NCBI GenBank assembly: GCA_944376795.1
Contig: CALWDW010000012.1
Location: forward strand, 1-64,000
DNA from: an uncultured Christensenellaceae bacterium
GTDB taxonomy: Bacteria; Bacillota; Clostridia; Christensenellales; UMGS416
DNA: 64,000 bases
Direction of reading: 5' to 3'
In this document: one piece after another, positions 6,718 through 61,956 of the stretch
Position numbering within the stretch: position 1 is the first letter of the stretch
Layout: each line of letters opens with the position of its first letter
Made by a program: the position numbers and the translations under genes
Notes under the pieces: model-generated
Told to the model about the DNA's origin: nothing
What the model saw: only the letters and a program-made list of their open reading frames with translations
Database searches by the model: none

Positions 6718-7848
6718 CTATCGGCCGTCGGAACGGCCAGCCGCGTACCGGGCCAGGATCACATCCCCCAGAGTCTTGGCGCTCTCCCGGGGAGCGAAGC
6801 GCCTCTGGCAGTCGCGGATGGCTTCTCCCCGGCCGGGACAGTCCAGAATCAGCCGTACCGATTCGTCAATGCGGCGGACATCCACGCAGCGCATGGCCAT
6901 GCCCATATTGGTGAGAAAGTCCTGGTTCTGGGTCTCAATGCCGGGGATGGGGTCAATGAGAAGCATGGGACGGTTCTTGGCCAGGGCTTCGGAGGTGGAC
7001 AGCCCTCCCGGCTTGGTGATCACCCAGTCGGCGGCGTCCATGAGCCGGTCGATGTTGTCCACAAACCCCAGGCTATGCACCTTAGGACTGCCCAGGGCGT
7101 CGATGCGCTGCCGGAGCCGGGGATTGCGCCCGCAAACCGCCAGGAGCTGGAGCGAATCGGGCATGGCGGCGATGGCCGCCACCGCTTCGTAGAGAGGATT
7201 GAGCCCCATGCTCCCCGCCATGATCAGGAGCGTGGGCTTTTCGGCCAGGCCCAGGGCCGCGCGGGCCTCCCGGGGATCGCCGGCCCGGGCAAAGCGGGGA
7301 TGGACGGGAATGCCCAGGGGCAGAAGGGTTTCCTTGGGGATGCCGCGCTTGACGGCCTGGTATTCCAGATAGGGGGAAGCCAGTACGAGAAAATCCATCC
7401 CGCAGATCTCCCAGTAGGGATGAATGGTGAAGTCGGTGACGATGCCATAGGAGGTTACGGAGGGAGGAAGCAGCCCTTTTTCCCGCATGATGCGCACCAC
7501 GTGGGCGCCGTAGACATGGCTGCAGACCACCGCATCGGGGACGAAGGAACGCACCGTGCGGATCAGCCGCTTGGCCAGCACCCAGTTGGCGTTGGAGAAG
7601 AACTGGTCTGCGGCTTTCATGGCGGTGGTTTTTTCCCCCAGACGGTAGAGGCGGCTCCAGGCCCTGGGCGCGTACTGGGTCATGCGGGTATAGGTACGGT
7701 CGGTGATGCGGCTGAGCCGGGGGTTGATGCACTCCAGGGCGTCCAGCATCCGGCACTGCACTCCCAGGGGTTCCAAGTAAGCCATGAGGGCTTTACAGGC
7801 CATATTGTGTCCCTGGCCCGAGGTGAAGGAAAGAAAAAGAATCCGCAT
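6718..7848 (-). CDS. MGDG synthase/UgtP-like GT28 glycosyltransferase
   Basis: 376 residues, start set by CCAGGAGG seven bases before the ATG at 7848. N-terminal LFLSFTSGQGHNMACKAL is the MGDG-synthase-type acceptor loop (G-x-GH). The C-terminal half has the GT-B nucleotide-sugar site: LIMAGSMGLNPL, then VHSLGFVDNIDRLMDAADWVITKPGGLSTSEAL, the family signature with the conserved KPGG. It probably transfers glucose or galactose from the UDP-sugar to diacylglycerol at the membrane to make a glycolipid or lipoteichoic-acid anchor. The longer upstream frame lacks a ribosome-binding site. It is divergent from the ADP-ribosylglycohydrolase gene. Confidence 0.82.
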   Translation of the reverse strand: MRILFLSFTSGQGHNMACKALMAYLEPLGVQCRMLDALECINPRLSRITDRTYTRMTQYAPRAWSRLYRLGEKTTAMKAADQFFSNANWVLAKRLIRTVRSFVPDAVVCSHVYGAHVVRIMREKGLLPPSVTSYGIVTDFTIHPYWEICGMDFLVLASPYLEYQAVKRGIPKETLLPLGIPVHPRFARAGDPREARAALGLAEKPTLLIMAGSMGLNPLYEAVAAIAAMPDSLQLLAVCGRNPRLRQRIDALGSPKVHSLGFVDNIDRLMDAADWVITKPGGLSTSEALAKNRPMLLIDPIPGIETQNQDFLTNMGMAMRCVDVRRIDESVRLILDCPGRGEAIRDCQRRFAPRESAKTLGDVILARYAAGRSDGR

Positions 7849-8016
7849 GTGCAATGCCTCCTGGCTGTGGATTTTCTCTGGCCGGCGGCATGGAGGGGAA
7901 GGCATGTCGCCTTTTTCGCGGAACCGGAAATGGTCATTCGCCGCCATGGTCAGAGGGGATAATCTATTTTATCATACAGCTAAGCAAACGGGAAATATAG
8001 TAAGGAGGATGAACAA

Positions 8017-9396
8017 ATGGCGGGCTGGGAAACTTTGCGCGGATTGGTGCGGGAGGAATTGCGCCAGCGCCAGGAGGAGGGCTATGACCTTACCGGCATG
8101 GAGGCGGCCTTTGCCGCGCTGGAGCATGCCGGGGATGCGGCGCTGAACGCCCTGTATGATGCCATTCTGCATCGGCCCAAGCGGCCGGACTTTCCCTACG
8201 TGGAGCCCAATGGTTTGGAGGAGATCCGGCGGGAGAGCAGCGGCTGGGACATTGCGCCCCGGACGCTGGGGGATGCGGAGCTGTTGGACAAGCTTCATGG
8301 GGCCTGGGTAGGACGGGCGGCGGGCTGCGCCTTGGGCAAGCCCGTGGAGACCGGTTATTACATGGAGGGAACGGAGGACGCCGAAGGCTGGCGGAATGTG
8401 AAGGCCTGGTTCCAGGGGGCGGACGCCTATCCCATCCGGGGCTATACCCCCGAGCATTCCCGGGCGGAGGCCCAGGGCCTGGATCTAGCCCGGTACTGTG
8501 TCCGCAGCATGCGGGAGCACATCGCCTACATGGAGTCTGACGATGATATCCGCTACAGTGTGCTGGGACTGCTGATGATGGAGCGCCATGGCGCGGCGTG
8601 GGACAGCTGGGACGTGGGACGGCTCTGGCACGAGAAGCTCTCTTATGGCCAGGTCTGCACCGCCGAGACCCAGGCCTATCTTAACTTTGCCCAGGTGAAG
8701 TCCCATATGCATGGGGAGAAGCCGGAAGACTTCCGGGAGAAGCTGGACTGGGTGCGTACCTATCGTAACCCATACCGGGAGTGGATCGGCGCCCAGATCC
8801 GTGTGGACGCCTACGGCTACTGCGCCGCCGGGGATCCGGCGCTGGCCGCCCGCCTGGCCTGGGAGGACGCCTCCTTCTCCCACGTAAAGAACGGCATTTA
8901 CGGGGCGATGTTCTGCGCGGCCATGATTGCCGCCGCCTTTACCGCCGGGGATGTGGAGGAGATCTTGGAAGCCGGACTTGCCCAGGTTCCTACCCGCAGT
9001 CGGCTGTATGAGGACATACGTTTTGCTGCCGGCCTGGCGCGCCGGGAGAAGGACCCCGAGGCACTGCTCCAGGGCCTGTGGGACCGCTTCCGCGGCATGA
9101 GCGGCGTCCATACCAACAACAATGCCGCCCTCTGCGCCGCCGCGCTGCTCCACGGCGCCGGCGATTACGAGAAGGCCATCACCACCGCCGTGCTGGGCGG
9201 CTGGGATACCGACTGCAACGGCGCCACCGTAGGTTCCGTTATGGGGGCCTTCCTGGGCCGCGGAGGGATTCCCGAGACCTGGGCCGCGCCGCTGCATGAT
9301 ACCATCTACGCGGATGTGCCGGGCTTTGACCCGGCCGCCATGACCGACTGCGCCCGCCGGTGCCTGGCGGTGCGCCGGACCTTGGAAAAGGCATAA
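8017..9396 (+). CDS. ADP-ribosylglycohydrolase family protein (DraG-like)
   Basis: 459 residues with TAAGGAGG before the ATG. The DraG-like core begins near residue 95 (LHGAWVGRAAGCALGKPVE). ESDDDIRYSVLGL supplies one metal-binding Asp cluster, and GGWDTDCNGATVGSVMGAFLG near residue 400 supplies the second (DTDxxG). The ~90-residue N-terminal extension is not part of the core fold. Members remove ADP-ribose from proteins or small molecules, or hydrolyse related N-glycosides. Only 11 bp separate it from a cytosolic GH18 gene, suggesting a shared glycan or nucleoside substrate rather than nitrogenase control; no nif gene is present. Confidence 0.85.
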   Translation: MAGWETLRGLVREELRQRQEEGYDLTGMEAAFAALEHAGDAALNALYDAILHRPKRPDFPYVEPNGLEEIRRESSGWDIAPRTLGDAELLDKLHGAWVGRAAGCALGKPVETGYYMEGTEDAEGWRNVKAWFQGADAYPIRGYTPEHSRAEAQGLDLARYCVRSMREHIAYMESDDDIRYSVLGLLMMERHGAAWDSWDVGRLWHEKLSYGQVCTAETQAYLNFAQVKSHMHGEKPEDFREKLDWVRTYRNPYREWIGAQIRVDAYGYCAAGDPALAARLAWEDASFSHVKNGIYGAMFCAAMIAAAFTAGDVEEILEAGLAQVPTRSRLYEDIRFAAGLARREKDPEALLQGLWDRFRGMSGVHTNNNAALCAAALLHGAGDYEKAITTAVLGGWDTDCNGATVGSVMGAFLGRGGIPETWAAPLHDTIYADVPGFDPAAMTDCARRCLAVRRTLEKA

Positions 9397-9407
9397 GGAG
9401 GAAAAGT

Positions 9408-10445
9408 ATGTCTAGGAAACCCATTGTATTCGCCGCATACTGCGTGCCTCGGGGGCTGGCCGACGTGACGCCTGCCCAGGCGCGCCGCCTGACCCACTTG
9501 AACCTGGCCTTTGGCGTGGTCAAGGACAATAAGATCGATGCCAGCGCTATCCGCGCCAACCGTTACTACCTGGAGGAGATCCGCCGCAACAATCCGGATT
9601 TGGTGATTCTCCTTTCCACAGGCGGAGGCGGCGCCGGCGGCCATGGGGAGGCTACCACCGCCGAGAACCTGCCCGGCTTTGTGGAGTCCACCATGGACGT
9701 GGTGCGGGAGTTCCAACTGGACGGCATTGACTGCGACTGGGAATTCCCCTGTAACACCGGGCATATGGAGGAAAAGGAACAGCACGTCCAGTTGATGCGG
9801 GCCTATCGCAAGGCCCTGGACGCCTATGAAAAGGAGCGGGGCGGGCGGAAGACCTGGCTGACCATCGCGGCGGCGGCCTGGGATCTCTACCTGCGCAATA
9901 CCGACGTGGCGGCAGTGGCCGAGGTGCTGGACTTCATCAACCTAATGACCTATGACATCCGGGACGCCGCCTGGGCGGAGAATTACACCGGCCACCACAG
10001 CAACCTGTACAGTCCCAAGGGCTGCTTCTATCCGGACTGCATCGACCTGTGCGTGGAGAAGTACCACGCCCTGGGGATTCCCTACGACAAGCTGGTGATC
10101 GGCGCGGCCTTTTACTCCCACCGGTGGGACGGCGTGCCCGACGTCAACCACGGGATGAACCAGAAGATGACCACCCCCTGCGTCTACGGCCCGGGGTATA
10201 CGGCCATCCACCTCATTTACGAGCGGAGCCAGGAGTATGTCAAGTATTGGGATGAGGACGCCAAGGCGCCCTGGCTCTTCAACGGGCGGAGCTTTATCAC
10301 CTATGACGATCCCATGTCCATGGGTTACAAGGCTGCCTATGTCCGGGAGAAGGGCGTCCGGGGGATCATGTACTGGGAGCACTCCAGCGACAAGACGGGG
10401 CTGCTCTTTGATGCCCTCTACGAGGGATTGTTTATGAAAAAGTAG
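9408..10445 (+). CDS. Cytosolic glycoside hydrolase family 18 (chitinase-like)
   Basis: 345 residues, start after AAGGAGGAAAAGT. The GH18 catalytic motif DGIDCDWE lies at residues 105-112 with E112 as the acid. LSTGGGG is the preceding conserved strand, and FINLMTYDI plus GIMYWEHSSD are the later barrel strands. There is no signal peptide or carbohydrate-binding module, so it should act inside the cell on imported N-acetylglucosamine-containing oligosaccharides (chitinase or endo-beta-N-acetylglucosaminidase type). It lies 11 bp behind the DraG-like gene, probably in one operon. Confidence 0.88.
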   Translation: MSRKPIVFAAYCVPRGLADVTPAQARRLTHLNLAFGVVKDNKIDASAIRANRYYLEEIRRNNPDLVILLSTGGGGAGGHGEATTAENLPGFVESTMDVVREFQLDGIDCDWEFPCNTGHMEEKEQHVQLMRAYRKALDAYEKERGGRKTWLTIAAAAWDLYLRNTDVAAVAEVLDFINLMTYDIRDAAWAENYTGHHSNLYSPKGCFYPDCIDLCVEKYHALGIPYDKLVIGAAFYSHRWDGVPDVNHGMNQKMTTPCVYGPGYTAIHLIYERSQEYVKYWDEDAKAPWLFNGRSFITYDDPMSMGYKAAYVREKGVRGIMYWEHSSDKTGLLFDALYEGLFMKK

Positions 10446-13047: not shown

Positions 13048-13100
13048 GGTGCTAACCATAAAAATCTATAGTGCCGGCTTGCACGGCAAGGAGAATGAGC

Positions 13101-14588
13101 ATGCGTACACTGACCTACGACAAGAGGATCCGTTATCAGCGTATGGACAACTTTGGCGCGTCGGCCTGCTGGTGGCTGGATCCGGCCTATGAGCGGGCAA
13201 CCCCGGAGGACATGGCCCAGGTGGCGGCCTATCTCTTCGACCGGGAGAAGGGCGCGGGCCTGAGCTGCATCCGCTTCAACCTGGGCGGCGGTTCCACGGT
13301 CTATGATAAGCCGGGGAATTTCATTGCCAACTGGATGATGCGCTCGGGCTGCTTCAAGATGACCGAGGACGGGGATTACAACTGGGACGAACACGCCGGA
13401 CAGCAGTACCTCCTGCGGGAGGCCAAGCGCATGGGCGTGGAGCGGGCCATTGCCTTTGTGAACAGCCCCCCTGCCTGGATGACTCGCAACGGGCACTGCC
13501 GCTCGGACGGGGACGACACCTCCACCACCAACCTGGCGCCCGGACGGGAGGCAGACTTTGCCAAGTTCCTGGTGGATGTGCTGGCCCATTTCCAGGAGAT
13601 TGGACTACCTTTTGACTATATCAGCCCCATCAACGAGCCGGCCGTCACCTGGAACGATCCCAAGCAGGAAGGCTGCCGCTACAGCAACGAGGACATGGTT
13701 CCCGTAATCCTGGCTCTGGCCAAGGCCCTGCAGGATTCTCCGGTTACGGCGAAAATCCTGGTGGCAGAGTGCAACACGCTGGTGCACATGATCGACGAGG
13801 ACCTGGCTGCGCCTCTGTACGAGGAGTACTGGCGGAAGGGCCGCATGGTCAACGACCGGGATACCGATAAGCCCGGTTACCAGTACGGCGCCAAGTACAA
13901 CGAGGTGATCCGCGACCTGCTCTCCCGCCAGGAGATCCGCCAGGCCATCGCGCCCATCGCTGCAGGCCACAGCTACGGCACCGATACCCCCGGACGCATT
14001 AAGAAGACCCGGGATGCCCTCATGGCTACCATGGGCCGTCATCCCGGCCTGGAGTACTGGATGACCGAGCTGTGCGTGCTGGGCCCCTACGGCCCCAAGC
14101 GCGACCTGACCATGGCGGCGGGCGAATATGTGGCCAAGGCCATCCATGGCGACCTGGTCTATGGCAATGCCTCTGCCTGGCAGTGGTGGCTGGCCCTTTC
14201 CGGCGGCGACTATAAGGACGCCCTGGTCTACCTGGATATGGATGAGGAGAACTACACCCCCGGCGTCCATCCCACCAAGATCCTGTGGGCCATGGGCCAC
14301 TATGCCCGGTTCCTGCGGCCCGGCGCCCAGCGGGTGGAGATGACCGGCGGCGACGTGGAGGAGGGCCTGCTGGCCAGCGGATGGCTCAGCGCCGAGGGCA
14401 AGCCTGTGGCGGTGCTGCTGAATACCTCGGACGAGGATCAGACGGTGAAGCTGGAGGGCATGCCGGCGGGAGCGTATACCCTGTGGCGTACCGACGATAC
14501 GGTAAGCCTGGCCTCCCAGGGCACGGTAACCCTGGAGGAGGGGCTTGTGATTCCGGCTCACAGCTTTACCACCTTGGTTGGCTGCTAG
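13101..14588 (+). CDS. Cytosolic glycoside hydrolase family 30 (endo-beta-1,6-galactanase-like)
   Basis: 495 residues. AAGGAG sits seven bases before the ATG at 13101; an in-frame ATG six bases upstream lies too close to it. The family pattern is clear: SCIRFNLGGG, then AFVNSPPAWMTRNGHC, then ISPINEP with acid/base E179 and YWMTELC with nucleophile E323, followed by AWQWWLAL and a small C-terminal beta domain. It is closest in look to GH30 beta-1,6-galactanases, although glucosylceramidases belong to the same family. There is no signal peptide, so cytosolic action on imported oligosaccharides or glycosides is inferred. Confidence 0.87.
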   Translation: MRTLTYDKRIRYQRMDNFGASACWWLDPAYERATPEDMAQVAAYLFDREKGAGLSCIRFNLGGGSTVYDKPGNFIANWMMRSGCFKMTEDGDYNWDEHAGQQYLLREAKRMGVERAIAFVNSPPAWMTRNGHCRSDGDDTSTTNLAPGREADFAKFLVDVLAHFQEIGLPFDYISPINEPAVTWNDPKQEGCRYSNEDMVPVILALAKALQDSPVTAKILVAECNTLVHMIDEDLAAPLYEEYWRKGRMVNDRDTDKPGYQYGAKYNEVIRDLLSRQEIRQAIAPIAAGHSYGTDTPGRIKKTRDALMATMGRHPGLEYWMTELCVLGPYGPKRDLTMAAGEYVAKAIHGDLVYGNASAWQWWLALSGGDYKDALVYLDMDEENYTPGVHPTKILWAMGHYARFLRPGAQRVEMTGGDVEEGLLASGWLSAEGKPVAVLLNTSDEDQTVKLEGMPAGAYTLWRTDDTVSLASQGTVTLEEGLVIPAHSFTTLVGC

Positions 14589-16468: not shown

Positions 16469-16592
16469 TCCCCGCCGCAGGCAAATTGCCCATTATGTGC
16501 ATGGCGCTTGTCAGTTTTGGCTATCCCGGCCGGGACGGCAAGGGGCTATAATGCAAGGGAACGGGGTACATCCCCGACAAGGAGGTAGTGCG

Positions 16593-17831
16593 ATGAAGAC
16601 CGAACGTTTCCCCTTGGGATTTTGGAACTATGTGGCCGCCGACCAACAGCATCCCGCCGATGTCCAGGATTGGGCGGACTGTGGCATCACCCTGACCATG
16701 AGCGCCGAGTATGTGGACGGGCGCAGCGATAAGGCCAATTTCCTGGCTACCTTGGACGCGTGCCAGGAAAAGGGAATCCGAATTATCGTCTGCGACAGCC
16801 GCGGACGCTGGCCCGGGGCCTCTACAGACGAAGCGGGCTTCCGCGCCCGCTTTGCCCAGGCGTTGGAGGACTTTGGCGGGCACCCGGCAGTTTTTGGTTT
16901 CCACGTAGGGGATGAGCCCCACGACCCGCTGGGACTGGCCGACGCCAAGGCAGCCTGCCGCATCGAGAAGGAGATGGCTCCCCATCTTACCCCCTTCCTC
17001 AATCATCTGCCTTTCTTTCCCCACATCGTGGACCGGCTCTGCCCCGGGCGCACCTATGACGCCTTCCTGGCGGAGTTTGCCCAGGAGGCACGGCTGGATA
17101 TGTTCAGCTACGACTGCTACGCCCAGATGAATGAAGGGGATGCCGGGGTGGAGCAGTATTTTGCTAACCTTTACACCTTTGGCAAGGCGGCACACCAGGC
17201 GGGGATCCCCCTGTGGAATACCGTGCTCAGTGTGGGGCACTTTAAGTACCGCTGCCCCAGCGAGGACGACCTGCGCTGGCAGCTCTTTACCAGCCTGGCC
17301 TGCGGCTGCAGGGCCATTATGTGGTTCTTTTTCTATATGCGGGAGCCTCACGTGAATTACCGTATTGCCCCCATTGATGAGCACGGAGAGAGGACCGCCA
17401 CCTACACCAGCATGAGCCGTATCCACCGCACCTTCCTGAAACGGGAGGCCGAGGCCATGAACGGTCTGACCCTGGATCGGGTCTTCCATGTGAACCGGGC
17501 TTATGGCGGCTTCCCCCTCTTTGTGGAGTACACCGATCCTCTGGTGGCCTACGTCCGCACCAGCGATCATACGCCTGCCATTTACTCGGTGTACCATGAC
17601 GAGGCAGGGCGGACGTATTTTTCGGTGGTGAATAACTCCGTGAAGGAATCCCTGCACGTGGACACGCTGGTGCGCGGAGAACCTCGCATCTTCCGGGTTG
17701 ACTTCGGCCCCCGGGAGACCGAGCTTACCGATGTCCAGTGGGGAGACGCCGCCTTTGGCCGGGAGGAGGGCGGGAGCCGGATCTCCACCTGGCTGGCCCC
17801 GGGACAGATGGAGCTCTACCGGGTGGAGTAG
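16593..17831 (+). CDS. Glycoside-hydrolase-like TIM-barrel protein, unknown specificity
   Basis: 412 residues; start after AAGGAGG. It reads as a (beta/alpha)8 barrel with LGFWNY, IIVCDSRG, VFGFHVGDEPHDPLG (a strand-4-type GDEP acid/base candidate near residue 110), DMFSYDCYAQM and IMWFFFYMREP, then a C-terminal beta domain (YSVYHDEAGRTYFSVVNNS). The overall shape recalls GH42-like or other clan A hydrolases, but the family is not certain. No signal peptide is present. Confidence 0.6.
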   Translation: MKTERFPLGFWNYVAADQQHPADVQDWADCGITLTMSAEYVDGRSDKANFLATLDACQEKGIRIIVCDSRGRWPGASTDEAGFRARFAQALEDFGGHPAVFGFHVGDEPHDPLGLADAKAACRIEKEMAPHLTPFLNHLPFFPHIVDRLCPGRTYDAFLAEFAQEARLDMFSYDCYAQMNEGDAGVEQYFANLYTFGKAAHQAGIPLWNTVLSVGHFKYRCPSEDDLRWQLFTSLACGCRAIMWFFFYMREPHVNYRIAPIDEHGERTATYTSMSRIHRTFLKREAEAMNGLTLDRVFHVNRAYGGFPLFVEYTDPLVAYVRTSDHTPAIYSVYHDEAGRTYFSVVNNSVKESLHVDTLVRGEPRIFRVDFGPRETELTDVQWGDAAFGREEGGSRISTWLAPGQMELYRVE

Positions 17832-19351: not shown

Positions 19352-20077
19352 ATGAAGATTTTTGCCATATCGGATCTGCATCTGTCTAAGGCATGTCCCA
19401 AGCCTATGAATATCTTTGGGCCTCATTGGGAAGGACATTGGGAGCGGGTGCAGGAGCGCTGGAAGGCCAAGGTGGGCGAAGAGGATGTGGTGCTTATCGG
19501 CGGGGATATTTCTTGGGCCATGAGCTTGGAGGACGCCCGGGCCGATCTGGCGGAGATTGGCGCTCTTCCTGGAAAGAAGGTGCTTCTGCGGGGAAACCAT
19601 GATTACTGGTGGGGTTCGCTCTCCCGGGTGCGGGAAGCGGCGGGGCCCGGCTTTTTTGTGCTGCAGAATGACAGCCTTCGGTGCGGGAAGGCGGTCATTG
19701 CCGGAACCCGGGGCTGGAGCTGTGCGGCGTCGGCTTCCACCGCCCAGGATGAGAAGATCCTTCGCCGGGAAGCCCAGCGCCTGGAGCTATCTTTGGCCCA
19801 CGCCGCCAGGCAGCGGCAGGAAGGGGACAGGCTGCTGGTGATGATGCACTACCCTCCCTTTAATGACAAGCAGGAGCCTTCGGTATTGACCGAGATCCTG
19901 GAGTCGGCCGGCGTGGATCAGGTTAGCTATGGGCATCTTCATGGGCCCCATCTGGCGTTCGCCTTTGAAGGGGAGCTCCGGGGCGTGCGTTACCGCATGG
20001 TGTCCTGCGACTACCTGCGCTGTGATCCGGCTATGCTGGCCCGGGAAACCGAGGACGGCGCCATGGAAATTTTATAG
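19352..20077 (+). CDS. Calcineurin-like metallophosphoesterase
   Basis: 241 residues with the complete motif set of the family: ISDLHLS (motif I), GGDISW (II), GNHDYWW (III), MMHYPPF (IV) and YGHLHGPH (V), all in order. It binds two metal ions and cleaves a phosphoester. The GDISWAM...GNHDYWWGS pattern is shared with YkuE-type or uncharacterised clostridial phosphoesterases; the substrate is unknown. It is preceded by the zinc-ribbon gene and ended by two tandem terminators. Confidence 0.9.
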   Translation: MKIFAISDLHLSKACPKPMNIFGPHWEGHWERVQERWKAKVGEEDVVLIGGDISWAMSLEDARADLAEIGALPGKKVLLRGNHDYWWGSLSRVREAAGPGFFVLQNDSLRCGKAVIAGTRGWSCAASASTAQDEKILRREAQRLELSLAHAARQRQEGDRLLVMMHYPPFNDKQEPSVLTEILESAGVDQVSYGHLHGPHLAFAFEGELRGVRYRMVSCDYLRCDPAMLARETEDGAMEIL

Positions 20078-20078
20078 A

Positions 20079-20100
20079 GGGCTGGGACAAGCCCTTTTTT
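20079..20100 (+). terminator. Terminator 1 after the metallophosphoesterase gene
   Basis: 5-bp stem GGGCT/AGCCC with 6-nt loop directly followed by six T (20095-20100), starting 2 bp past the stop codon. Confidence 0.75.
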
Positions 20101-20106
20101 GCAATA

Positions 20107-20138
20107 GGCGGACTCCCGCAAGGGGGGAGCGCCCTTTT
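20107..20138 (+). terminator. Terminator 2 (tandem)
   Basis: Interrupted GC stem (GGCG...CGCC outside, CTCCC/GGGAG inside) followed by five T; it backs up the first terminator. Confidence 0.6.
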
Positions 20139-20175
20139 TGCTTGCGATGGCATGGCGGAGAATGGAGGACGGAAA

Positions 20176-21396
20176 ATGGATAAGGTCTTCACGGTGAAGA
20201 GGGGAAGAATCGTGGACGCCGAGGGAGCGCCTGCGCGTCTGCATGGCGTGAATGTGGTGAATAAGGATCCCCGTGCCGGGTATTTGTATTTCTTGTCCCA
20301 GGAGGACTGGGACGCTTTGGCGCGGATTGGGGTGAACTGTGTCCGCCTGGGCATCTTTTGGGATGGACTGGAGCCGAGCCCCAGAAGATTTGCGTCCCGG
20401 TACCTGGATCAGGTGGAGCGGCAGGTGGATGCATTTGCCAACCACGGGATTGCGGTTATTTTGGATATGCATCAGGACCTTTACGCACGCCGGTATGCCG
20501 ACGGCGCCCCGGACTGGGCGGTTCTCAACGACGGGATGCCGCACAGGGCGCTGCCGGGGATGTGGAGCAGCGCTTATCTGATAAGCCCGGCGGTACAGCA
20601 TGCCATCGACAGCTTTTGGTCCAATGCGATGTTGCCGGACGGATGGAGGCTGCAGGAGCATTTCCAGGAGGCCTGGCGCCGGGTGGCCGCCCGGTTTGGC
20701 GACCATCCCTATGTGGTGGGTTATGACCTCTACAACGAGCCCATTCCCGGCAGCGGGGCGGGCGCCACGGCCGCCCGTCTGCAGGATGCCGTGCAGGACT
20801 GCCTGTCGCGGGAAGCGGGACGTCCCGTCAAAAAGGCGGAACTCTGGGATCTCTATACCCAACCAAGCCATCTGGAGAAATGGCTGCGGGAACTTCCGCT
20901 CAAGACGTATATCGATGTGATCGATACCGTCGCGCCGTATGGCGAGGTGTTTGACCGCACGGTGCTGCAGCCCTTTTACAATAGGGTGGCGGCGGCCATT
21001 CGAGTGGAGGATTCCAGTACCATGCTGTTTTTCTGCAACAGCTACTTTGGCAATCTGGGGGTCCCTTCGGCGCTGGAAGCTTTGGGAGGCCGGTATCCCG
21101 ATCCTTGCCAGGTGTATGCGCCCCATGGCTATGACTTGGTGGTGGACACGGACGTTCAGGCATATTCCCAGGAACGGGTGAATTTCATCTTCTGCCGGCA
21201 CGCCAAAGCGGCGCGGCGTATGGGCGTCCCGATGGTGGTGGGGGAATGGGGCGCGTTTTACGGCGACACCGCCGCACGGGACAGGGTGCGGGCAACCCTG
21301 CTTACGCTGGAGGCGCTGGAAGCAGGGGATATGTATTGGTGCTATGTCCCCGGGGAGACCCGCCAGACCCCTTGCTTCTCCCAGCTGGCCCTGTAA
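20176..21396 (+). CDS. Endoglycoceramidase-like glycoside hydrolase family 5, no signal peptide
   Basis: 406 residues, start after GGAGGACGGAAA. The layout follows endoglycoceramidases: LHGVNVVNK, IGVNCVRLGIFWDGLEP, VILDMHQDLYARRYADGAPDWA, a W...Y...V..AIDSFWSN segment, GYDLYNEPIPG with acid/base E188 and VVGEWGAFYG with nucleophile E357. Endoglycoceramidases cut the glycan from the ceramide of glycosphingolipids, and related GH5 enzymes act on simpler glycolipids. Known ones are secreted, whereas this one has no signal peptide, so either the substrate is imported or specificity differs. Confidence 0.82.
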   Translation: MDKVFTVKRGRIVDAEGAPARLHGVNVVNKDPRAGYLYFLSQEDWDALARIGVNCVRLGIFWDGLEPSPRRFASRYLDQVERQVDAFANHGIAVILDMHQDLYARRYADGAPDWAVLNDGMPHRALPGMWSSAYLISPAVQHAIDSFWSNAMLPDGWRLQEHFQEAWRRVAARFGDHPYVVGYDLYNEPIPGSGAGATAARLQDAVQDCLSREAGRPVKKAELWDLYTQPSHLEKWLRELPLKTYIDVIDTVAPYGEVFDRTVLQPFYNRVAAAIRVEDSSTMLFFCNSYFGNLGVPSALEALGGRYPDPCQVYAPHGYDLVVDTDVQAYSQERVNFIFCRHAKAARRMGVPMVVGEWGAFYGDTAARDRVRATLLTLEALEAGDMYWCYVPGETRQTPCFSQLAL

Positions 21397-21434
21397 TGCC
21401 TGCCGCCCTCCCTGTAGAATCCTTGCCAGAACTG

Positions 21435-21461
21435 GCCGTCCCGCGCGGGACGGCTTTTTTT
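21435..21461 (+). terminator. Terminator after the GH5 gene
   Basis: 8-bp stem GCCGTCCC/GGGACGGC, 4-nt loop GCGC, followed by seven T. It isolates the GH5 gene from the dcw promoter downstream. Confidence 0.9.
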
Positions 21462-21510
21462 ATTGGGCAAACCTGCGGGAGGGAATTTTCATTTGTAAAT
21501 TCCTTGCATC

Positions 21511-21517
21511 AAAGTGG
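21511..21517 (+). promoter_or_regulatory. Upstream MraZ-box-like repeat
   Basis: AAAGTGG within ATCAAAGTGG; the same 10-mer recurs exactly 70 bp downstream (21578-21587). It lies 20 bp above the -35 of the dcw promoter. Confidence 0.5.
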
Positions 21518-21536
21518 ATTTATCGGGGTAAAGGGG

Positions 21537-21565
21537 TTTACATCCCTGTTTTAACCCGATATAAT
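21537..21565 (+). promoter_or_regulatory. Sigma-A promoter of the dcw cluster
   Basis: TTTACA (21537-21542), 17 bp, TATAAT (21560-21565). It is 66 bp upstream of mraZ and flanked by AAAGTGG repeats. Confidence 0.85.
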
Positions 21566-21580
21566 AAGTGTGTATCCATC

Positions 21581-21607
21581 AAAGTGGGGCAAAGTGGTGG
21601 AAGTTGG
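21581..21607 (+). promoter_or_regulatory. MraZ operator: three AAAGTGG-type repeats with 10-bp period
   Basis: AAAGTGG at 21581, AAAGTGG at 21591 and a degenerate AAGTTGG at 21601, each 10 bp apart, lie between the -10 and the mraZ ribosome-binding site. MraZ is known to bind short direct repeats with a 10-bp period upstream of its own gene, so this is probably the autoregulatory site. Confidence 0.8.
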
Positions 21608-21630
21608 AGGAATACGGAAGGAGGGATTGC

Positions 21631-22083
21631 ATGGCGATCAAGGGCTTCATGGGCCGCTATGAGCATACATTGGATGCCAAGGGCCGCCTGTTTATCCCGG
21701 CCAAGTTCCGTGCGGGACTGGGGGAGACCTTCATAATCTGTCCTTCCTTCCATCAGAACTGCCTCTGGGCGTTTTCGGAGGAGACCTTTAATGAGATCAT
21801 TGATAAGCTGGCCGGCGTCTCCCTGATGGATGAGGACAGCACGATGATTGAATCTTTCCTGTTCCAAAATGCCAACGATGTGACGCTGGACAGCCAGGGA
21901 CGGGTCAATATCTCCCCGGAGCACCGGCAGTGCGCTTCCCTGCAGAAGGATGTTGTGATTGCCGGCACCCGGAATCGCGTGGAGATCTGGGACAAGGAGC
22001 TCTACCTGGCCCGCAAGCCCGTGATGGACGAGCGGTTCCGTGCCGCCATGGAGCGCGCGGCGGCAAAGGGCGTGGTGATCTGA
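21631..22083 (+). CDS. mraZ: Division/cell-wall cluster transcriptional regulator MraZ
   Basis: 150 residues, start after GGAAGGAGG. Two AbrB-like MraZ repeats are seen: GRYEHTLDAKGRLFIPAKFR (N-terminal) and NANDVTLDSQGRVNISPEHR (C-terminal), each with the D-x-x-GR-x-x-IP/S signature. MraZ forms a ring that binds direct repeats and represses the dcw operon; such repeats lie directly upstream. Its stop overlaps the rsmH start by one base (TGATG), so translation is coupled. Confidence 0.96.
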   Translation: MAIKGFMGRYEHTLDAKGRLFIPAKFRAGLGETFIICPSFHQNCLWAFSEETFNEIIDKLAGVSLMDEDSTMIESFLFQNANDVTLDSQGRVNISPEHRQCASLQKDVVIAGTRNRVEIWDKELYLARKPVMDERFRAAMERAAAKGVVI

Positions 22084-36171: not shown

Positions 36172-37422
36172 CTACCCCAGTTTCATCCGCAGGACCCGTA
36201 CAACGCTCTCCAGCAGCCGTTCCCGGGTCAGGCGTCCCTCCTCCAAGGCCTGGTATAGGGCGGTGAATACCGCCTTCTGGTTGTCCATTCCCTTGCCGAT
36301 CAGGACGAGGTCGCCTCCGGCCTCCAGGAAGCGCACCGCGCCCTCTCCCACGGACATCTGGCTGGTGAGCCCCTGCATGCGCATGTCATCGGAGACCACC
36401 ACGCCATCAAACCCCATATCCTCCCGCAGCAGCCCCGTGATGATGGCGGGGGAGACCGATGCGATGTTTTCCCCGTCCAGCGCGGGGAAGGAAAGATGCC
36501 CCACCAGCATGGCGTCTACGCCGACCTCGATGGCGGACTGGAAGGGGATGAGGGCGTAACGCTCCAGTTCTTCCCGCGATTCTTGGATGACGGGAAGGGC
36601 TTCATGGGAGTCGGTGGCGGTATTGCCGTGACCGGGGAAGTGCTTGCCCACGGCGGCGCAGCCTCCGTCATGCAGGCCGCGTATGGCTTCGGCGGCGAGG
36701 CGGGAGACCGACGAAGGGTCGCTGCCAAACATGCGGCTCCCCAAAAAGGTGGCGTCGGGATCGGGCGCAATGTCCAGCACCGGGGCAAAGTCCAGCGTAA
36801 CGCCGGCGTCAGCCAAAGAGCGGCCAATGCGGGCAAACTGATCGTAGGCTGTCTGGGGATCGTCCAATTCCCCCAGCTCCTGGGCGGAGAGCAGGCGAGG
36901 CGACCAGGAAAAACGCCGCACCGTGCCGCCTTCTACGTCCAGGCCGATGCCCATCGGAATGCTTTCCTGCGGGCGCAGGGATTGCAGAAGTTCGGTGAGC
37001 GCAGCGCAGTCGTCAAAGCCCTGGATATTCCAGCCAAAGAGCATGATATTACCTACCTGGTATTGGGCAATGAATTCCTGGTAAGCCTGGGTGATACGGC
37101 GGGGATCCGTTACGCCGTCCGCTTCGGGGCACAGCACGCCGATCATGACCAGCTGCCCGATGAGCTCCCGGTCGGTAAGCTCCTCGGCCAAGGCGCGGAT
37201 GGGATCGGGCGTAGGCGTAGGGACAGGGGTGGGCTCGAGGGTGGCGGTTGGCGTTTCGGCTGCCGTGGGGCGGGGTGTGGGACTGGGGGAAGGCACGGAA
37301 GCCGCAGGGACAGATGGGCTGGCCGTAAGGCGGGTGGGTTCGGGTTCCCCAGCCGGGCGTCCCGGGACGCACCCGCCCAGAAGGACGCACAGGCCCATAA
37401 GCAAGGCATAGAGTCGGCGCAT
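36172..37422 (-). CDS. nagZ: Lipoprotein beta-N-acetylhexosaminidase-like GH3 (NagZ type)
   Basis: 416 residues, start after GGGAGG. The signal peptide ends in lipobox LLGGC (Cys ~18), followed by a ~55-residue Ser/Pro/Thr linker. The GH3 barrel has IGLDVEGGTVRRF, VLDIAPDPDATFLGSR, the NagZ signature KHFPGHGNTATDSHEALP (with the catalytic His on the mobile loop) and the nucleophile strand VVSDDM. It should release GlcNAc from muropeptides outside the cell, unlike the cytosolic E. coli NagZ. It is convergent with ftsZ. Confidence 0.9.
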   Translation of the reverse strand: MRRLYALLMGLCVLLGGCVPGRPAGEPEPTRLTASPSVPAASVPSPSPTPRPTAAETPTATLEPTPVPTPTPDPIRALAEELTDRELIGQLVMIGVLCPEADGVTDPRRITQAYQEFIAQYQVGNIMLFGWNIQGFDDCAALTELLQSLRPQESIPMGIGLDVEGGTVRRFSWSPRLLSAQELGELDDPQTAYDQFARIGRSLADAGVTLDFAPVLDIAPDPDATFLGSRMFGSDPSSVSRLAAEAIRGLHDGGCAAVGKHFPGHGNTATDSHEALPVIQESREELERYALIPFQSAIEVGVDAMLVGHLSFPALDGENIASVSPAIITGLLREDMGFDGVVVSDDMRMQGLTSQMSVGEGAVRFLEAGGDLVLIGKGMDNQKAVFTALYQALEEGRLTRERLLESVVRVLRMKLG

Positions 37423-60617: not shown

Positions 60618-61892
60618 TTATCGGAGCAGCATCACCGCGGCGCCATGGGCGGGTACCACCGTGGCGGCCAGCTCCTGGGCGGTTCCCATGGGCGCGTTCT
60701 TCCACAGGTCGGTGACCGTGCAGGGGCCTTGGATTCCCAGTTCCTCCAGGGAGGTGGCTATGGCCCGGGGCGTATCGTTGAGATTGAAGTGAGCCAGATA
60801 CAGCCCGCCCTCCGGGCAGCGGGCAATCCACGCGCCGCAGTCATCCCGGCGGTACAGGGGCCGGTTCTCCCGGCCGTGTTGGTTGATGGCTAAGAGCGCA
60901 GGGTTGGTGATGAGCGACAGGGAAAAGTCGTCTATGTCGGTGAGCTCGCACCCCAGGATCAGTGGGCTGCGGGCCATGCACCATAGGGACATCATGAAGA
61001 TCTGCTCGTCCCGGGTCAGCTGGGTGAAGCGGGAACTATTGTGGGCCTCGTTGCTGCGCACCGAGAGGTGGGCGATGGGGATCATGTCGGCGTCGGGATA
61101 GTGGCCCTCTCCCATATAGGGGTTCCAGTCGGTGAGAAGCCCATACTGCTGGTAAAGGCTGGGCCAGTGATCCCAGAAGTCGTTGGAGACCCGCCACATG
61201 TTCAGATTGGCCACACAGTGCGCGGCCTGCTCCAGGGGGGTGTTCCCCGGGGAGGAGGAGAAGACAATGGGACGTCCGCAGCCGTCAATGGCGCGGCGGT
61301 AGATCTCTACCTCCTCGGCGTGGTAGACCGGGGCGGACAGGTCGTCGATCTTGAGAAAGTCCACGCCCCAGGAGGCGTACAGGGCCAGCAGCGAGTCGGC
61401 ATAGGCCTGGGCGGCGGGATGCGCGGTGTTGAAGCCGTACATGTCGGTATTCCACTGGCAGACGCTGTTTCCCCGGGCAGCCTGGCGGCAGGTGTAGTCC
61501 GAGCCCCAAATGGGGCAGTCGGCGTAGACCGCCTGGCGCGGGACGCCCCGCATGATGTGAATGGCGAATTTCAGCCCCAGGCTGTGGACGTATTCGGCCA
61601 GGGGCGCAAACCCCTTGCCGCCGGCGGCGCTGGGGAAGCGGTTTTCCGCGGGAAGCAGCCGCCCATAGGCGTCCATGCACAGGGGCGCCAGGTCATGGTA
61701 GGCGGTGCCCGAAGCCGTGGGCTCCGACCACTGGATATCCACCGTTACGTATTGCCAGCCATATTCCTTCAGGTGTTTGGCCATAAAGTCAGCGTTGGCC
61801 CGGATCTCCGCCTCCCGGACGCTGGCGCCGTAACAGTCCCAGCTGTTCCAGCCCATGGGCGGTGTGGGGGCAAAGCGGTCTTTTTTCGCCAT
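60618..61892 (-). CDS. Cytosolic GH27-like alpha-galactosidase
   Basis: 424 residues, AAGGAGG before the ATG at 61892. PPMGWNSWDCYG is the N-terminal GH27 motif; YVTVDIQW, GLKFAIHIMRGVP and FLKIDDLS (nucleophile D183) are barrel strands; RVSNDFWDHW holds the acid/base Asp, and MMSLWCMARSPLILGCELTDID and ALLAINQHG close the barrel before a small beta domain. It releases terminal alpha-galactose (or N-acetylgalactosamine). There is no signal peptide. It lies 64 bp behind an ABC transporter, which could be its importer or an unrelated exporter. Confidence 0.9.
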   Translation of the reverse strand: MAKKDRFAPTPPMGWNSWDCYGASVREAEIRANADFMAKHLKEYGWQYVTVDIQWSEPTASGTAYHDLAPLCMDAYGRLLPAENRFPSAAGGKGFAPLAEYVHSLGLKFAIHIMRGVPRQAVYADCPIWGSDYTCRQAARGNSVCQWNTDMYGFNTAHPAAQAYADSLLALYASWGVDFLKIDDLSAPVYHAEEVEIYRRAIDGCGRPIVFSSSPGNTPLEQAAHCVANLNMWRVSNDFWDHWPSLYQQYGLLTDWNPYMGEGHYPDADMIPIAHLSVRSNEAHNSSRFTQLTRDEQIFMMSLWCMARSPLILGCELTDIDDFSLSLITNPALLAINQHGRENRPLYRRDDCGAWIARCPEGGLYLAHFNLNDTPRAIATSLEELGIQGPCTVTDLWKNAPMGTAQELAATVVPAHGAAVMLLR

Positions 61893-61956
61893 CGGGTTTC
61901 CTCCTTGCAATCCAAACTGTATGCTTGCATTCCACACGGGGTGGGGGATTTCCTGC

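Follow-up and report, generated by a model that had tools for sequence, protein, structure and literature searches.

An endoglycoceramidase-like GH5 protein of a Christensenellaceae bacterium with a helical insert and neither an export signal nor a beta-sandwich domain

A C-terminal beta-sandwich is a feature of endoglycoceramidases (EGCs), the glycoside hydrolases closest to the protein described here. In EGC-II, Glu233 is presumably the acid/base and Glu351 the nucleophile, and we take His135, Asp137, Trp178, Asn232, Tyr306 and Trp382 to form the sugar site, with Lys66 presumably a further sugar contact. According to their titles, the solved complexes of EGC-II include one with a lactosyl intermediate and one with a cellobiose-like inhibitor. 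In GH-A enzymes, the leaving group usually sits just past the strand that bears the acid/base. EGC-type enzymes serve in glycolipid synthesis, and fungi have cytosolic EGC-related proteins. PMC3526467 places the characterised EGC subfamilies GH5_27-29, among them the GH5_28 of EGC-II, exclusively outside the cell.

The window analysed here, a stretch of 64,000 nucleotides from an uncultured Christensenellaceae bacterium, encodes a GH5 protein of 406 residues exactly where an earlier note on this DNA had placed it (20176-21396, plus strand). A GGAGG ribosome-binding site lies just 5' of its ATG, and an alternative upstream ATG at 20152 would add eight residues with no hydrophobic stretch. The four motifs that the note had read in the protein (LDMHQD, GAPDWA, DLYNEP and GEWGAFYG) are all found in the ORF, whose AlphaFold2 model has a mean pLDDT of 91.9. 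The reading favoured below, to which we give a probability of about 0.5, is that of a cytosolic retaining beta-glycosidase of the EGC superfamily that acts on a small imported beta-glycoside. The features of the gene are:

20176..21396, plus strand: GH5 gene, EGC-like, without a signal peptide, intact ORF of 406 aa
20470..20478, plus strand: His99-Gln100-Asp101, the HQD motif, invariant in alignment A1 and aligned to His135-Gln136-Asp137 of EGC-II
20737..20739, plus strand: Glu188, predicted acid/base, equivalent to Glu233 of EGC-II
20752..20949, plus strand: helical insert after strand 4, residues 193-258, beside the acid/base
21244..21246, plus strand: Glu357, predicted nucleophile, equivalent to Glu351 of EGC-II
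21340..21396, plus strand: short C-terminus with no beta-sandwich domain, 18 residues after Trp388

The protein is a member of GH5: Pfam PF00150 matches it well above the cut-off (E = 5.7e-25, 88.8 bits vs 23.5) and both catalytic glutamates, Glu188 and Glu357, are invariant. The sole NCBIfam model listed for it is endoglycoceramidase I (NF051847, E = 4.2e-33), whose equivalog cut-off of 700 bits is missed with 114.6 bits. Among solved proteins, a search with the single sequence retrieved EGC-II (1.6e-32), endogalactosylceramidase (6jyz, 7e-27) and EGC-I (about 2e-21). With a 22-row profile the respective values were 2.4e-74, 4.7e-51 and 3.6e-48, followed by a sterylglucosidase (4.3e-25), a GH5_22 xylosidase (4.6e-24) and endoglucanases (8e-21 or weaker). 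The same three enzymes were the top three Foldseek matches of the model, and VIA-align gave them Z scores of 40.5 (EGC-II), 40.3 (EGC-I) and 37.9 (endogalactosylceramidase), EGC-I and EGC-II superposing with an rmsd of 2.3-2.5 A at Z of about 40; within the best 50 rows, sterylglucosidase A reached 31.8 and the others at most 27.8. Since EGCs rank first in sequence, Foldseek and VIA-align, the family hint of the earlier note was right. No closer clustering with a non-ceramidase GH5 enzyme was seen, the other solved GH5 enzymes listed being farther.

The protein could alternatively be an ordinary broad-specificity beta-glucosidase or cellodextrinase, in which case its nearness to EGCs would be uninformative on the aglycone. 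Many subfamilies of GH5 are active on glucans or glucosides, as described in PMC3526467, and all the relatives found for the window protein are distant (identity 41-45% at most). Nevertheless, the profile values of the endoglucanases and the GH5_22 xylosidase are far weaker than those of the EGCs, as are the Z scores of the other enzymes in the best 50 rows (below 28, sterylglucosidase A apart, vs 38-40), and this explanation seems unlikely.

The relatives of the GH5 protein comprise 46 loci from a scan of genome contigs and one in a genome of the same family (G001). In a first tree of 41 rows, which used 37 of these 47 loci (ten near-duplicate, broken or cut loci were omitted) and a 50% column-filling rule under which insert columns could be kept, the window protein falls within a 21-row clade (support 100/97). 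A second tree was rooted with other GH5 proteins: five rows were removed, L074, L075 and four outgroup rows were added, and the column-filling rule was raised to 60%, below which the insert columns fall. The clade was recovered again with 20 rows (100/96), and its sister group was made up of EGC-I and two Mycolicibacter proteins (98/95). Long-branch warnings accompanied both trees; the clade holds in either, while its sister group is less stable. By sequence, fold and tree the nearest known relatives of the window protein are EGCs. Within the EGC superfamily, its clade forms a separate branch, apart from EGC-I, EGC-II and endogalactosylceramidase. One flavobacterium aside, the named members of the clade belong to the Bacillota: Clostridia MAGs and three Schleiferilactobacillus species. 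Their distribution is rare and scattered: a profile search at E <= 1e-40 retrieved 4/396 genomes of the order, 3/391 of the class and 2/398 of the phylum, the window's own genome included each time. A plasmid search gave 13 records with relatives at identities below 40%, which may lie within the clade or outside it. Among the literature matches listed, no title or opening abstract line dealt with this clade or with a cytosolic bacterial EGC.

The catalytic set is complete. His135, Asp137, Trp178, Asn232 and Glu233 of EGC-II correspond to His99, Asp101, Trp130, Asn187 and Glu188, and His304, Tyr306, Glu351 and Trp382 to His317, Tyr319, Glu357 and Trp388. None of the nine, the two glutamates among them, varies across 23 clade rows and 17 outer rows, and the HQD motif is identical in 43/43 aligned rows; the sugar-site set of EGC-II is thereby present in full. 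Lys30 was considered as the counterpart of Lys66 of EGC-II and dropped, as the two do not align. Two further residues, Asp320 and Arg334, are invariant in the 23 clade rows and occur elsewhere in 3/20 and 2/20 rows, respectively. By analogy with EGC-II, Glu188 would protonate the leaving group and Glu357 would be the nucleophile, while the conserved His/Asp, Asn, Tyr and Trp would hold a beta-glucosyl or beta-glycobiosyl unit, which the lactosyl and cellobiose-like complexes of EGC-II make the natural expectation for the minus subsites.

The lack of a signal peptide, claimed by the earlier note, is real and is also a trait of the clade. According to a hydropathy heuristic over 11-residue windows at every candidate start (used in place of SignalP), the N-terminus of the window protein has no hydrophobic segment (maximal Kyte-Doolittle mean 0.6). 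A hydrophobic N-terminus is absent in 25/27 clade sequences (maximal mean 1.4), the exceptions being L007 (2.5) and L009 (3.0), and present in 18/18 sequences outside the clade (at least 2.1). The check covered 44 of the 47 loci (L040, L044 and L052 were omitted), and six of the 27 clade rows (L019, L023, L025, L026, L027 and L035) lie outside the tree and were assigned, by identity and neighbours, as near relatives of tree rows. The note had called a cytosolic glycolipid-processing set unusual; within the clade a missing signal is the rule, and the word holds only in that the clade itself is rare.

The clade also differs from other EGC relatives next to the acid/base. The spacing from Gly192 to Phe259 is 66 residues in the window protein and 59-73 in 23/23 clade rows, while the strand-4 loop has 2-22 residues in 19/20 rows outside the clade. 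The insert directly follows the strand that bears Glu188 and is helical in the model (from H193-214 to H253-278), with a pLDDT of 86-94 over residues 191-260. The single exception, L029 (gene at L029:6001-7467), is a lipoprotein-like EGC relative from a planctomycete that has a strand-4 insert of 66 residues although it is not a clade member; the insert may thus predate the move to the cytosol. At the other end of the chain, the last strand of the model spans residues 384-390 and the beta-sandwich is missing. In 18/23 clade rows, 92-111 residues follow the equivalent of Trp388. Besides the window protein, L007, L008 and L010 are also short (19-21 residues past that Trp), as is L015 (34 residues), which is ended by the end of its contig. 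The beta-sandwich was probably lost twice in the clade, since the window protein does not group with L007, L008 and L010. No convincing remnant of it was found in 21301-21760, where the best tblastn match (E = 0.046) was short and taken as chance.

These traits bear on whether the protein could be a true endoglycoceramidase (EC 3.2.1.123) that meets glycosphingolipids which reach the cytosol or are released after lysis. Among solved enzymes, EGC-II, endogalactosylceramidase and EGC-I come nearest to it, the outgroup-rooted tree puts the clade inside the EGC assembly and eight of the EGC-II residues named above (His135, Asp137, Trp178, Asn232, Glu233, Tyr306, Glu351 and Trp382) are kept. Yet the protein has no export signal and its characterised counterparts are those described as extracellular, the insert lies at the presumed aglycone side, the beta-sandwich is missing and the NCBIfam score is far below the EGC cut-off. 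One ceramidase family, PF04734, was searched: it has no match in the window's own genome (95% complete), and among eight genomes it gave weak matches in 2/8, with 0/8 above the cut-off; as it matched 0/14 control genomes too, the search had no positive control. Because of the compartment, the insert and the lost beta-sandwich, activity on glycosphingolipids appears doubtful from the sequence, and we regard this explanation as distinctly unlikely. The protein is not filed here as an endoglycoceramidase since the extracellular location, the beta-sandwich and the short strand-4 loop of these enzymes are missing and the NCBIfam cut-off is not reached.

The favoured cytosolic beta-glycosidase would probably cut a sugar conjugate other than the substrates of EGCs. 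The helical insert could reshape or lid the aglycone side, which accommodates ceramide in EGCs, and the substrate would be a small imported beta-glycoside whose aglycone may be aryl, alkyl, glyceryl or similar; its cleavage inside the cell would yield a usable sugar. Against this reading, a lipid aglycone is favoured by the glycosphingolipid substrates of all three characterised enzymes that neighbour the clade in the tree and by the place of the EGC-I group as its sister (98/95). A further suggestion is tentative and, on balance, improbable: a cytosolic Bacillota endo-glycolipidase with a helical lid, acting on an imported or home-made non-ceramide lipid glycoside.

The earlier note further supposed that the GH30, GH27 and GH18 enzymes of the window, which likewise lack signal peptides, form with the GH5 protein a cytosolic glycolipid-processing set. 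These genes, and a glycosyltransferase that bears on lipid glycosides, are:

6718-7947, minus strand: UgtP/MGDG-synthase-like glycosyltransferase
9360-10445: GH18
13071-14588: GH30
60618-61937, minus strand: GH27

The export signals are indeed missing (hydropathy maxima of 1.5, 0.6 and 0.2 for GH18, GH30 and GH27), which fits the breakdown of imported glycosides and is silent on lipids. The set itself is unsupported, as the relatives of GH27 and GH30 are the wrong ones, the genes are unlinked and PF04734, the single ceramidase family covered, gave no match in a search lacking a positive control. GH18, GH30, GH5 and GH27 lie kilobases apart with other genes between them. The note had pointed out that GH30 includes glucosylceramidases, but for the GH30 protein the glucosylceramidase match (1.3e-4) is the last of 17, its closest solved relatives are 3clw (4.5e-49) and GH30 xylanases, and PF14587 and PF17189 are listed among its Pfam matches while PF02055 is not. 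The GH27 protein is nearest to a GH27 beta-L-arabinopyranosidase (8.9e-147), in a near-tie with a putative alpha-N-acetylgalactosaminidase (3.8e-146), and matches alpha-galactosidase A at only 2e-9 to 1.1e-7. Three other GH30 proteins with PF02055, on other contigs of the genome, count against rejecting a glycolipid pathway; the wider claim of such a pathway in the window is not upheld.

Several other genes were observed along the way. On another contig of the same genome (G000), a further GH5-like match (C3:19764) adjoins a PF02055 GH30 gene (C3:21247-22020). The window also encodes, on the plus strand, an ADP-ribosylglycohydrolase-family protein (PF03747, 8017-9396) just upstream of GH18, a 414-aa ORF (16587-17831) that on inspection by eye resembles a cytosolic TIM-barrel glycosidase but is matched by no Pfam or NCBIfam model at E 0.001, and a right-handed beta-helix protein of 454 aa (PF13229, 40473-41837) with no hydrophobic N-terminus. 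The GH3 protein (36172-37422, minus strand) has a hydrophobic N-terminus (2.6) that ends in LLGGC and is lipoprotein-like.

The glycosyltransferase raises the possibility that the GH5 protein hydrolyses the cell's own beta-glycosyl-diacylglycerols at the cytosolic face of the membrane, a location comparable to that of the cytosolic EGC-related proteins of fungi. The compartment matches and the relatives cleave lipid aglycones. However, the family of this glycosyltransferase, PF06925, is found in only 3 of the 22 genomes carrying the GH5 clade that its search covered, so that turnover of own glycolipids cannot be the general role, and the genes are not linked. This explanation is accordingly placed lower still, as very doubtful.

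The reading as a beta-glycosidase for imported glycosides also has to be set against the surroundings of the gene, in which the following features were annotated:

19352..20077, plus strand: calcineurin-like phosphoesterase, upstream neighbour, outside the GH5 function, marking the likely insertion site
20079..20100, plus strand: terminator-like hairpin with a T run, 3' of the phosphoesterase and 5' of GH5, found by eye
21434..21465, plus strand: terminator-like site after GH5 and before mraZ, a 9-pair stem (21434-21455) followed by a T run

The terminator scan did not list the hairpin at 20079-20100 and gave weak stems at 20113-20136; it yielded three sites vs 2.2 expected from shuffles, a total not above chance, the site at 21434 being its strongest stem. 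No promoter-like site was found by scan in the gap between the phosphoesterase and GH5. The terminator-like sites on both sides suggest a separate single-gene transcription unit, against which the missing promoter-like site counts. In two genomes of the same family (G001 and G006) the phosphoesterase adjoins mraZ with no GH5 between them, so GH5 was most likely inserted in the window, and a gain in this lineage is likelier than a loss elsewhere. Different genes lie upstream of mraZ in G003 and G004, and no mraZ match was obtained in G002 and G007. Both the terminator-like site at 21434 and the adjacency of phosphoesterase and mraZ in G001 and G006 make it unlikely that GH5 belongs to the dcw operon. 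Two sigma-factor genes a few kilobases past ftsZ fit a spore-former. As for the idea of a decaying or mis-called gene with a truncated C-terminal domain, which the missing beta-sandwich might suggest, it is highly improbable in view of the open frame with its ribosome-binding site, the full catalytic set, the confident model (pLDDT 91.9), the terminator-like site soon past the stop, the lack of a convincing beta-sandwich remnant downstream and the three relatives that end at almost the same point.

The window GH5 is flanked by neither a transporter nor a regulator gene, nor by any further sugar gene. Elsewhere in the clade, the homologue in G001, at a site other than that next to mraZ, sits directly behind a GFO/IDH/MocA oxidoreductase gene, one gene away from a divergent AraC-type regulator; an AraC-type regulator adjoins GH5 in L013, and a GH29 fucosidase gene lies directly upstream in L010. 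A sugar-symporter-type gene (PF13347) lies within 2 kb of GH5 in at least four loci (L010, L012, L014 and L028, the last scoring higher as a general MFS), Pfam having been run on the neighbours of part of the loci. With genome sizes and flanks rounded, chance alone would give about 1.0 across the 22 genomes (Poisson P = 0.017 for four or more, 0.076 for three or more); in a post hoc subset of 13 genomes with at most 11 PF13347 copies, three were seen vs 0.19 expected (P = 0.001). Since GH5 is flanked by unrelated genes in many loci of the clade (ABC-F, ClpE, a DHHW protein, Fe-ADH), the link between the clade and sugar import is suggestive only. In the window's own genome, the sole strong PF13347 match carries an in-frame TAG (C18:8505-9818, about 5506-6819 of L070); it adjoins a GH78 rhamnosidase gene (L070 7339-9414) and a further large ORF, GH3-like by eye (L070 9424-11754).

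Pfam and NCBIfam make the proteins of this clade look like cellulases or endoglycoceramidases. A branch in which both the compartment and the aglycone side have changed makes the range of EGC-type cleavage directly testable, and the cultured Schleiferilactobacillus species among its members, S. harbinensis and S. perolens (L012, L013) included, will help such testing.

Comparison with the known enzymes places the window protein as follows. EGC-II of Rhodococcus sp. (GH5_28; 2osw, 2osx) has in common with it the TIM barrel, the Glu pair and the HQD motif, and the equivalents of its Trp178, Tyr306, Asp311 and Trp382 are also present; it differs in having a beta-sandwich and a 6-residue loop in place of the 66-residue insert, and a Pro at the position of Asp320. 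EGC-I of Rhodococcus equi (5ccu, 5j14), which belongs to the sister group of the clade and has Lys30 and Gly59 in common with it, has an 8-residue loop instead of the insert, Phe at the position of Trp130 (Trp178 of EGC-II) and Gln at that of Asp324. The solved chains of EGC-I and EGC-II align beyond the barrel, over a further domain that the window protein does not have. Endogalactosylceramidase (6jyz) agrees in catalytic set and in fold (Z = 37.9) and differs in a 2-residue loop and in having Ser and Asn at the positions of Asp320 and Asp324. The fungal sterylglucosidases (8exd, 7lpo/7lpp) are GH5 enzymes that act on a glycolipid, one of the molecules being named 'Cytoplasmic protein'; their sequences (4.3e-25 and 5.3e-22) are clearly more distant, their fold scores lower (Z = 31.8 and 26.4) and their chains much longer. 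If the window protein were the endo-glycolipidase suggested above, it would be a bacterial counterpart, in location, of the fungal EGC-related and sterylglucosidase enzymes.
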